Position numbers and translations under genes: made by a program | Source of the DNA: Methanohalophilus euhalobius | GTDB lineage: Archaea; Halobacteriota; Methanosarcinia; Methanosarcinales; Methanosarcinaceae | Reading direction: 5' to 3' | Assembly (NCBI RefSeq): GCF_900215215.1 | Contig: NZ_OBDR01000002.1 | Coordinates: 62,001-126,000, forward strand | DNA length: 64,000 nt | The notes under the pieces: model-generated | The model's database searches: none | The model's input: the letters and a program-made list of their open reading frames with translations, nothing else | What the model was told of the DNA's origin: nothing | Part shown: in pieces, positions 2,912 to 4,462 of the stretch | Position numbering within the stretch: position 1 is the stretch's first letter | Layout of the letters: the number at the start of each line of letters is the position of its first letter

Positions 2912-2942
2912 CAAAAATAACATAGTTTAGATAGAGGTGTTC

Positions 2943-3248
2943 GTGCTGGAAACCATTGAAAACCGGGTAAGATCAAGGCTGATAAAATATCTTGGCCGGG
3001 ATGAAACAGGGATACGCAAAGTGGTGCTTAAACTGTTCCTTGACGGCGGGAAATATACCACCAATGATATCTATAAATACCTTCATGAAAAGAATTTTGA
3101 TATCAGTTACAGGGGAGTTTCAGCTATGGTTGGGCTCATGAACACACGCCTGGGAATCCTGAGTATTGATGTAACCGGCGACCACAATATCTATTTATTA
3201 AAAAATGATTACAGGGGTATTGTACGTTCAGTACTTGACAATTATTAA
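2943..3248 (+). CDS. DUF2551 family protein, winged-helix-like
   Basis: A 101-residue protein with LETIENRVRSRLIKYLGRDE, then VLKLFLDGGKYTTNDIYKYL and YRGVSAMVGLMNTRLGIL. I recognise it as DUF2551, a family of methanogenic archaea. The pattern of helix, turn, helix and a C-terminal strand pair suggests a winged helix, so a DNA-binding role is possible but not shown. AGAGGTG at 2933-2939 favours the GTG at 2943 over the GTG at 2937, which lies inside that ribosome site. It precedes uppS by about 20 bases and is probably cotranscribed with it. Confidence 0.7.
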   Translation: MLETIENRVRSRLIKYLGRDETGIRKVVLKLFLDGGKYTTNDIYKYLHEKNFDISYRGVSAMVGLMNTRLGILSIDVTGDHNIYLLKNDYRGIVRSVLDNY

Positions 3249-3268: not shown

Positions 3269-4159
3269 ATGATGTGGCGGATATTACCTGAAATGTTGTA
3301 TAAAGGATATGAATTTTTTCTGGAAAAAAATATCCGTAATTCTAAATTACCGCAGCATATAGCTATTATAATGGATGGAAACCGCAGATATGCCAAAAAA
3401 CTTGGTAAATTCACCTCATACGGCCATGCCCGGGGAGCCGATATTACTGAAAAAGTCATTGAATGGTCCTATGAAAGCGGCATCAAGGAATTGACAATAT
3501 ATGCTTTTTCTACTGAGAATTTCAACAGGAAAAAAGATGAGAAGAAAAGTATACTAAAACTTATAGGAACCAGACTTGAAGAGATGTGTGTTGATGAAAG
3601 GACACATAAAAGACGCCTAAAAGTACGTGTAATTGGAGACAGAACCCTTTTGCCAGGGGACCTCTTGCAGAGTATTGATAAAGTCGAGATGGCAACAAAG
3701 GACTACGACAGGCTAAAACTTAACATTGCAATTGCTTATGGCGGAAGACAGGATATCATACAGGCCATACGTGAAGTTGCCAGGAAGATAAAAACAGGGA
3801 ATATCAAAACGGGTGAAATAACTGAAAAAACCATATCCAGACACCTATATCCGGAAGAAAATTCAGCCGTATCAAATGTTGATCTCATAATTCGCACAGG
3901 GGGAAATGAAAGGGTTTCGAATTTCCTCCCCTGGCAAGCATGTGGAAATGAATGTGCAGCCTATTTCTGCGCCCCATACTGGCCGGAATTCAGGAAAATT
4001 GATTTCCTTCGATCCATCCGTACATACCAGCAGAGACAGGAAGAGAGAAGCAGAACACTTTCCAACAGGACAATGCATTTTATCCATAATATAGAGAGAA
4101 AACTGGATGTAAGAGATGTTGATGCTCAACCAAATAAATTACCTGAAAAAAATAGCTAA
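3269..4159 (+). CDS. uppS: Polyprenyl diphosphate synthase, UppS/cis-prenyltransferase family
   Basis: A 296-residue cis-prenyltransferase that condenses isopentenyl diphosphate onto an allylic primer to make the long lipid carrier for glycosylation. IAIIMDGNRRYAKKLG near residue 36 carries the catalytic Asp of the pyrophosphate site. YAFSTENFNR follows, and RTGGNERVSNFLPWQ near residue 210 is the conserved substrate-binding block. PEFRKIDFLRSIRTYQQRQ is the family's C-terminal motif. The length is in the usual archaeal range. Two adjacent ATGs at 3269 and 3272 lack a clear ribosome site, so the start is approximate. Confidence 0.92.
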   Translation: MMWRILPEMLYKGYEFFLEKNIRNSKLPQHIAIIMDGNRRYAKKLGKFTSYGHARGADITEKVIEWSYESGIKELTIYAFSTENFNRKKDEKKSILKLIGTRLEEMCVDERTHKRRLKVRVIGDRTLLPGDLLQSIDKVEMATKDYDRLKLNIAIAYGGRQDIIQAIREVARKIKTGNIKTGEITEKTISRHLYPEENSAVSNVDLIIRTGGNERVSNFLPWQACGNECAAYFCAPYWPEFRKIDFLRSIRTYQQRQEERSRTLSNRTMHFIHNIERKLDVRDVDAQPNKLPEKNS

Positions 4160-4170
4160 AATTCATAAAA

Positions 4171-4217
4171 GGCCGGTATCATCAGAAACCATGACGGGAG
4201 GGTGATGAAAGCCGGCC
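4171..4217. terminator. Hairpin between the convergent uppS and small-ORF genes
   Basis: GGCCGG at 4171-4176 pairs with CCGGCC at 4212-4217, and CATCA at 4180-4184 pairs with TGATG at 4203-4207, giving a two-part stem. T-rich tails follow on both strands (CTTTTTATTG forward). It lies between convergent genes and could end both transcripts. Confidence 0.6.
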
Positions 4218-4230
4218 AGCCTTTTTATTG

Positions 4231-4305
4231 TTAATTGTTCCTAAAGTGGTCCAGTTTTTCATAGCGTTTGGTTCTCTCGATAAGTCCTTTGAAGAATTCA
4301 TCCAT
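4231..4305 (-). CDS. Small protein of 24 residues, function unknown
   Basis: The reverse strand contains GAGGTGATAAGT followed by ATG and 24 codons: MDEFFKGLIERTKRYEK then LDHFRNN and TAA. The ribosome site and its spacing are as good as those of the highly expressed genes here. The peptide is charged and amphipathic and would form one helix; there is no membrane segment or cysteine. A strong hairpin lies immediately downstream. I do not recognise a family. The gene fills what otherwise would be an empty 300-base gap. Coding is inferred from the ribosome site and context only. Confidence 0.5.
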   Translation of the reverse strand: MDEFFKGLIERTKRYEKLDHFRNN

Positions 4306-4462
4306 ACTTATCACCTCAATAAGAAATAAGAATATAAGCTATTTTAAGGACCTCCAAGCAAGGTGAAAGTAATATAAATGACTCAAAAACAGCCACTTTT
4401 TAGACAATATTTATTTATTCTTCCAGATAGGTTATGAAAATACCTGGCGTAAGGAGTTGAAA

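Follow-up and report, generated by a model that had tools for sequence, protein, structure and literature searches.

The window, by which is meant the whole analysed stretch of 64,000 nucleotides from Methanohalophilus euhalobius, carries a small open reading frame of 24 codons on the reverse strand (positions 4231 to 4305), which was delimited by its reading frame and its conservation and encodes the peptide MDEFFKGLIERTKRYEKLDHFRNN. An earlier sequence-only reading had proposed a 24-codon reverse-strand gene with a ribosome site at this place, and the frame, as well as the sequence GAGGTGATAAGT-ATG at its start, was confirmed. On the same strand, the Shine-Dalgarno sequence GAGGTGA occupies positions 4311 to 4317, and a probable TATA box, TTAAAATA, which aligns with TTAATAAG/TTAATATA in relatives, lies at positions 4340 to 4347; judging by this TATA-like box, transcription would begin immediately before the ribosome site. 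Further upstream, positions 4354 to 4372 (reverse strand) are taken up by the element TTACTTTCACCTTGCTTGG, which resembles a damage box, has one mismatch to ATACTTTCACNNNGCTTGG and starts 67 nt before the ATG. Behind the stop codon, comparison with relatives outlined a 3′ hairpin (4171 to 4217, reverse strand) with the core GGCCGG ... CCGGCC, a covarying stem and a conserved loop. The convergent neighbour is uppS (3269 to 4159, forward strand; Pfam Prenyltransf), with 94–95% identity to the genes of Methanohalophilus sp. RSK and M. profundi, the nearest named relatives, and upstream of it lies a DUF2551 gene (2937 to 3248, forward strand; Pfam). The hairpin sits between the convergent uppS and the small ORF and is flanked by T-runs on both sides. 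A similar order of a DUF2551-like gene, uppS and the small gene was seen by eye at loci L064 (genus g7) and L071.

Methanohalophilus is a genus of Methanosarcinaceae, and family f1 of the genome set was taken to be this family. A profile built from 30 peptides, with which 185 genomes of the order were searched, found matches in 106 of the 111 Methanosarcinaceae genomes and in none of the 74 others, some of which are incomplete (E ≤ 0.01). Four of the five genomes of the family lacking a match (G016, G027, G089, G099 and G106) are less than 90% complete. The DNA search gave matches in all eight Methanohalophilus genomes, six of them across all 361 bases and those in G032 and G037 over only about 117. 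The tblastn search found the small frame unbroken in all eight genomes; thus, neither absence in close relatives nor frame-breaking changes between strains, either of which the earlier reading had held to speak against the gene, occurs within Methanohalophilus.

The same reading's view of the frame as coding is borne out by the changes within the genus, which are mostly synonymous per site. Between the window and locus L010, changes were found at 10.8 of 11.0 synonymous sites and at 5.2 of 52.0 non-synonymous sites. For 61 distinct cores of 21 codons, pN/pS is 0.07 in near-identical pairs and climbs to 0.30 in distant pairs, where pS is saturated, and the entropy per codon position (0.79/0.45/1.33) is highest at the third position. 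In an alignment of 30 peptides, which were shortened to 29 residues where longer and include some from loci first found via the hairpin model, residues M1, F5, L8 and R11 are invariant, and Y15, E16 and E19 are nearly so. The pN/pS values and the retention of the frame indicate that the small ORF is a gene under purifying selection, and the supposition of a chance ORF was rejected on pN/pS and the codon-position pattern. The small ORF is almost certainly a translated gene, as judged from these substitution patterns, and the Ribo-seq data for Methanosarcina mazei may already record translation of the Methanosarcina orthologue.

The copies are mostly 24–29 residues long outside genera g4, g5, g11 and g13; the g11 copies have 41 residues, and those of g4, g5 and g13 have 36–57. 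Many g5 and g13 genomes hold a second or third copy. The primary copy of G002 (genus g2) is cut by a stop at codon 19, and internal stops occur in the second copies of G078, G088 and G101. Locus L110 (G028:C136:39 onward) contains an 85-aa ORF with tandem small-protein cores, FFAGLIRRARYYEEIE ... FFAGLIQRIRYYDAFE. For a 47-residue relative, AlphaFold2 run on the single sequence predicted one helix spanning residues 2–27, with modest confidence (mean pLDDT 66.8), and the Protein Data Bank, searched with its sequence, returned one meaningless match (E 0.98). The Pfam and NCBIfam searches assigned the peptide to no accepted family; one relative had two Pfam matches far below the cut-off.

The neighbours of the small gene vary by genus, as found by reading the loci by eye. 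The uppS gene adjoins it in the g1 and g7 loci read, while in g13 and g5 it lies behind a flavoprotein/rubrerythrin-type cluster, in g10 and g11 beside a toprim-type gene, and in g9 and g12 in other contexts. The small gene is free-standing: the element, the TATA-like box, the short leader with the ribosome site and the ORF stay together across contexts. Of 92 distinct copies, 81 have the consensus of the element, ATACTTTCACnnnGCTTGG, with at most three mismatches and with its first base 66 to 69 nt ahead of the ATG, and the figure is still 81 of 92 when the loci fetched by the motif are left out; none of 4600 mononucleotide shuffles had fewer than four mismatches. The motif GAGGT lies at most 22 nt from the ATG in 74 of the 81 copies bearing the element. 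All 11 copies lacking it are second copies, one in G105 (g14) and ten in g5/g13. The latter, which are nearby second copies (L012, L034, L035, L037, L053, L057, L058, L059, L060 and L161), use another promoter and ribosome site.

The element was defined from the small gene alone and then searched for genome-wide. Within two mismatches, 163 sites, those of the small gene included, were found in 22 chosen genomes versus 23 sites of the reversed control; in G037 and G005, the count equals that of the control. A looser 16-mer gave 145 sites versus 51 control sites in Methanohalophilus, and the weak matches therefore include many chance sites. The sites of four genomes (G000, G041, G061 and G109) were examined in full, together with 11 of the 14 sites of G105, and those targets having no NCBIfam or Pfam result, as well as the gene neighbours, were named by eye. 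The window genome, G000, has six sites, located at the small ORF, a conserved RNA, RadA (L270), Hef (L269), a 94-aa protein (L268) and L271, which has no plausible target. The seven sites of G041 belong to the RNA, a radical-SAM gene, the small ORF, UvrA and Hef, with two lacking a target. The 12 sites of G061 precede the RNA, the small ORF, Hef, the radical-SAM gene, RPA, UvrA and, twice, an 86-aa protein, and four have no target. Among the 23 sites of G109 are the radical-SAM gene, the RNA, RPA, RadA, the small ORF, Hef, RecQ and DinD, as well as four BRO-N-type genes, a YhcG-type nuclease and two transposase-like genes, some of them named by eye; 8 of the 23 have no recognisable target. Besides, the element was found before RPA in g13 (L277 by NCBIfam, L283 by eye) and before DNA polymerase IV in g5. 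Among the members tested, RadA, RPA, RecQ, Hef, DinD and DNA polymerase IV scored above the NCBIfam cut-off; UvrA, scored on a partial ORF, was below it, and the radical-SAM repair-type proteins were below the cut-off of TIGR03916. Pfam matches to Bro-N, YhcG and RmuC back up individual targets of the element.

A combined element-plus-TATA pattern, drawn up once the first targets were known, gave 26 sites versus 1 control site in the eight Methanohalophilus genomes. In the window genome it occurs three times, at RPA, at the radical-SAM gene and at the RNA, and two other sites in Methanohalophilus, L244 and L261, have no plausible target. In ten further genomes of the family, 64 sites were counted versus 6 in the control, overlapping matches included; G073 shows no enrichment (1 versus 2) and G065 hardly any (3 versus 2). 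Five genomes outside the family demonstrated no clear enrichment (9 versus 5). With both patterns taken together, the window genome carries the element at RadA, Hef, RPA and the radical-SAM gene, and in the radA genes of G000, G032 and G109, identified by NCBIfam, it lies upstream of the TATA box. One promoter element common to repair genes, which is what an SOS-like damage regulon calls for, was thus found, and it is very likely that the small gene belongs to this repair regulon. Two of the nine sites outside the family precede RadA genes of another family of the order (L288 in G119 and L289 in G125, named by eye), and the small gene was not found in these genomes; the element may therefore be older than the small gene.

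Several other sequences were observed behind the element. A conserved RNA-like stretch, GCACACGCCTTTACAAGTTTCAAGGCTAGGTGCC...CATCCCCTC, follows it directly in g1, g10 and g14 (L272, G000:C19:35128 onward; L100, L174, L175, L273 and L274). This second RNA holds CAUCCCCUC, which is largely unpaired in the predicted fold. Six of the 24 pairs of that fold have changes on both sides, but several pairs are broken, and covariation gives it no net support (term +0.28); Rfam gave no match in L089, a locus holding this RNA. In Methanohalophilus, a protein of 85–94 aa with the pattern FNDGxQMLSYxINNMEVxGTVTEE lies behind the element (L268, G000:C14; L251, G031), and the L268 protein has no Pfam or NCBIfam match. 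Two copies of the 86-aa protein of G061 (L219 and L225) each lie behind an element, L219 having no Pfam match. In g14, BRO-N-type, DinD and YhcG-type genes (L196, L197, L200, L206, L207 and L238, in G109 and G105; most named by eye) have the element together with a common leader, TATATAnnCAAAAAAAnCAATTA, an arrangement suggestive of mobile genes that carried the damage promoter with them.

The 3′ end of the small gene has a conserved structure of its own. A stem was found behind the stop codon in all 33 copies from seven genera (g1, g3, g7, g9, g10, g12 and g14); seven of these hairpins were re-cut by rule, among them L115, which has no C-rich loop. The alignment comprised 25 of the 33 copies and left out three from g12, where MAFFT misplaced the 3′ arm, four from g9 with a shorter or different loop, and the near-duplicate L003. 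Five of the eight stem pairs are changed on both sides, the cells with such a double change number 24, versus 5.6 in shuffles, and the stem has a covariation score of 0.426 versus 0.208, with none of 500 shuffles as high. Two of the five measures were unremarkable: 38 of 500 shuffles had at least as many pairs changed on both sides, and 205 had at least as many further pair types. When the partner was shifted by 1 to 3 columns, every stem measure dropped. The 99.4% of paired cells is partly a product of construction, because the sequences were trimmed to stems already found, several being shortened further by hand; this effect touches neither the 27 model matches in unused genomes nor the compensatory changes. 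The loop keeps CCUCC and UCCCGUCA and, in several genera, GUUUGCUUUC too.

The covariance model of the hairpin gave 52 matches in 50 of the 111 genomes of the family, representing six genera, with weak E-values in Methanohalophilus (0.02–0.05). All 52 lie directly 3′ of the small ORF on the same strand, and 27 of them are in genomes outside the model. Ten matches were inspected, nine from genomes missed by tblastn and one second match; the ORF and the element were directly visible in nine, and the tenth, L135, is counted among the 52 located behind the ORF. The copies read from g13, g5, g4, g11 and g2 have no such hairpin and no model match, a g2 copy, L020, having a different stem, and no accepted Rfam family was found for the hairpin. 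In the window alone, the fold on the strand of the small gene is modest (z −1.66; 13 of 200 shuffles as good), whereas that on the uppS strand has a z of −3.11 (0 of 200 as good), and only the cross-genome comparison shows that the hairpin is conserved.

The sequence-only reading took the hairpin to be shared with uppS. As to position, this stands, since the hairpin lies between both genes; however, it also follows the ORF in genera where uppS is not a neighbour, which indicates that it belongs to the small gene. The assignment of the hairpin to uppS as a part of that gene was rejected for its occurrence behind the small ORF in other contexts, and it may have a putative second role as the uppS terminator. 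Pairing of the loop with the gene's own ribosome site was rejected too: in 32 of the 33 hairpins, with loops cut crudely, 8 bases at each end, the pairing was no better than that of shuffled loops (mean z +0.35). The hairpin may act as a terminator or stabiliser, a protein-binding loop or a trans-acting RNA.

The last of these would make the transcript a dual-function RNA, encoding the peptide and acting besides as a trans-acting sRNA through the C-rich loop directed against ribosome sites. A conserved structure beside an ORF, as expected of such an RNA, is present in seven genera, with a covarying stem and a long conserved loop that keeps CCUCC and UCCCGUCA in several genera; moreover, the second RNA under the same element shares CAUCCCCUC, predicted to be largely unpaired, and dual-function RNAs such as sRNA154 have been proposed for M. 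mazei, according to the accessible text of the report (PMC11456600). Against this, the only pairing examined, that with the own ribosome site, gave the negative outcome above, albeit for crude loop cuts, and the hairpin never occurred without the ORF among the 52 model matches. This reading is considered rather doubtful.

The hairpin could also be merely a terminator, possibly bidirectional, or a stabiliser shared with uppS. Its place between convergent genes with T-runs on either side speaks for such a function, and the fold on the uppS strand beats 200 of 200 shuffles; however, the hairpin accompanies the ORF even at loci with another neighbour than uppS, and its loop sequence, which a terminator would not need, is conserved. 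A purely terminating or stabilising role seems somewhat unlikely. A broader variant, in which a nearly universal member of the SOS-like regulon is a bifunctional RNA whose peptide of 24–28 residues serves as a damage checkpoint, braking division or replication, and whose conserved 3′ loop is an RNA regulator or a protein-binding site, is unlikely; if true, the regulon would gain an RNA arm through the second structured RNA that stands behind the same element.

The small gene probably belongs to an SOS-like DNA-damage regulon of Methanosarcinaceae, to which it would contribute a small protein translated from an mRNA whose 3′ end is structured; this appears to be the most suitable explanation. 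From the CTTTCA core and the position, which match the motif of Halobacterium, and from the agreement with the Sulfolobus motif ANTTTC, we infer that the element is a damage-response element of Methanosarcinaceae, with the small gene among its most regular members. The gene is likely to be damage-inducible, by analogy with Halobacterium, from which the induction is carried over and whose 11-mer is related and not identical. A putative regulator would act at the element, and DNA damage would turn on the repair genes and the small gene alike. Through its single predicted helix, the peptide would dock onto a protein partner, and it would most likely be a damage-time brake or modulator of division, replication or a repair enzyme, like the small SOS proteins of bacteria; a checkpoint-type role, rather than another, is proposed only tentatively. 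The hairpin would end and protect the short transcript, and its conserved loop may bind a factor.

Instead of a damage switch, the element might be a promoter element of DNA-metabolism genes that is either general or tied to replication or growth phase, with the peptide serving normal replication or cell-cycle control. RPA and RadA are needed in unstressed replication as well, the element is close to the TATA box, and damage induction in Methanosarcinaceae is carried over from Halobacterium. However, the targets include the dedicated damage genes UvrA, Pol IV, DinD, Hef and RecQ, and a related motif is described at UV-B-induced genes of Halobacterium in the accessible text of the report (PMC2556686); this reading is quite improbable. 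Finally, a gene for a non-coding RNA in which the ORF is fortuitous, and to which the short transcript with its structured 3′ end and the stop at codon 19 in the primary copy of G002 could be referred, is strongly disfavoured, to the point of being negligible, by the low pN/pS (0.07–0.30), by the frame kept across genera and by the preserved ribosome site.

Archaea are not known to have a LexA-type SOS system, and the proposed SOS-like regulon controlled by the element bears on how euryarchaea turn on their repair genes. The family-wide element linking RadA, RPA, UvrA, Hef, RecQ and Pol IV constitutes a testable regulon in the genetically tractable Methanosarcina. In addition, a role is suggested for a gene that, with its length of about 25 codons, is usually missed by gene finders; it is present in nearly all genomes of the family searched and carries a conserved RNA element in seven genera.

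Bacterial SOS regulons contain small brake or modulator proteins such as SidA, SulA and YneA. Like these, the peptide is a short, lineage-specific protein under the control exerted on repair genes, and the likeness is one of logic and not of sequence. Unlike them, the small gene has an archaeal promoter and a structured 3′ RNA, and a block of division is putative here.

In Halobacterium, the UV-B-induced genes radA1, top6B, vng17 and vng280 have the common motif TTTCACTTTCA upstream of the TATA box; according to the accessible text, the authors propose it to be the site of a regulator, and radA of Methanospirillum hungatei has the motif as well (PMC2556686). The Methanosarcinaceae element resembles it in the CTTTCA core, in the location upstream of the TATA box and in its presence at radA and other DNA genes. 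It differs in that it is 19 bp long, in contrast to the 11-mer of Halobacterium, and has GCTTGG as its second half; the consensus is ATACTTTCACnnnGCTTGG and not the exact TTTCACTTTCA. Induction was shown for Halobacterium and is extrapolated to Methanosarcinaceae, and no small-protein gene is reported in the accessible part of that paper (PMC2556686). In Sulfolobus, Orc1-2 is described as binding ANTTTC in damage-response promoters, as far as the accessible text of the report goes (PMC9738581). The ACTTTC within the Methanosarcinaceae element fits this motif, and the agreement concerns only six bases and a distant archaeal lineage.

Among the matches listed by a text search of the open literature, which mostly does not extend to subscription papers and preprints, neither the peptide nor a repair regulon of Methanosarcinaceae was described. 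MtrI and MtrR of M. mazei are likewise Methanosarcinales small proteins encoded by short, long-overlooked ORFs (PMC12774963, PMC13370731). These two and sORF_05 and sORF_06 of M. mazei were compared with the peptide as described in the accessible parts of the papers, and identity with any of the four was rejected because residues, size and context differ: MtrI has 68 aa, with contacts through Cys40, Trp34 and Tyr44, and no conserved Cys or Trp occurs in the alignment of the small peptides; MtrR has 49 aa and no aromatic residues, and the core of the small peptide is rich in aromatic residues, with the invariant F5 and the nearly invariant Y15. A parallel in organisation is offered by sRNA154/sORF_154 of M. 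mazei, which, according to the accessible text, is proposed to be both a regulatory RNA and an mRNA, participates in nitrogen regulation and contains a leaderless ORF of 20 aa (PMC11456600). It is similar to the small gene, by description and not by sequence, in being a short transcript with a proposed dual use.
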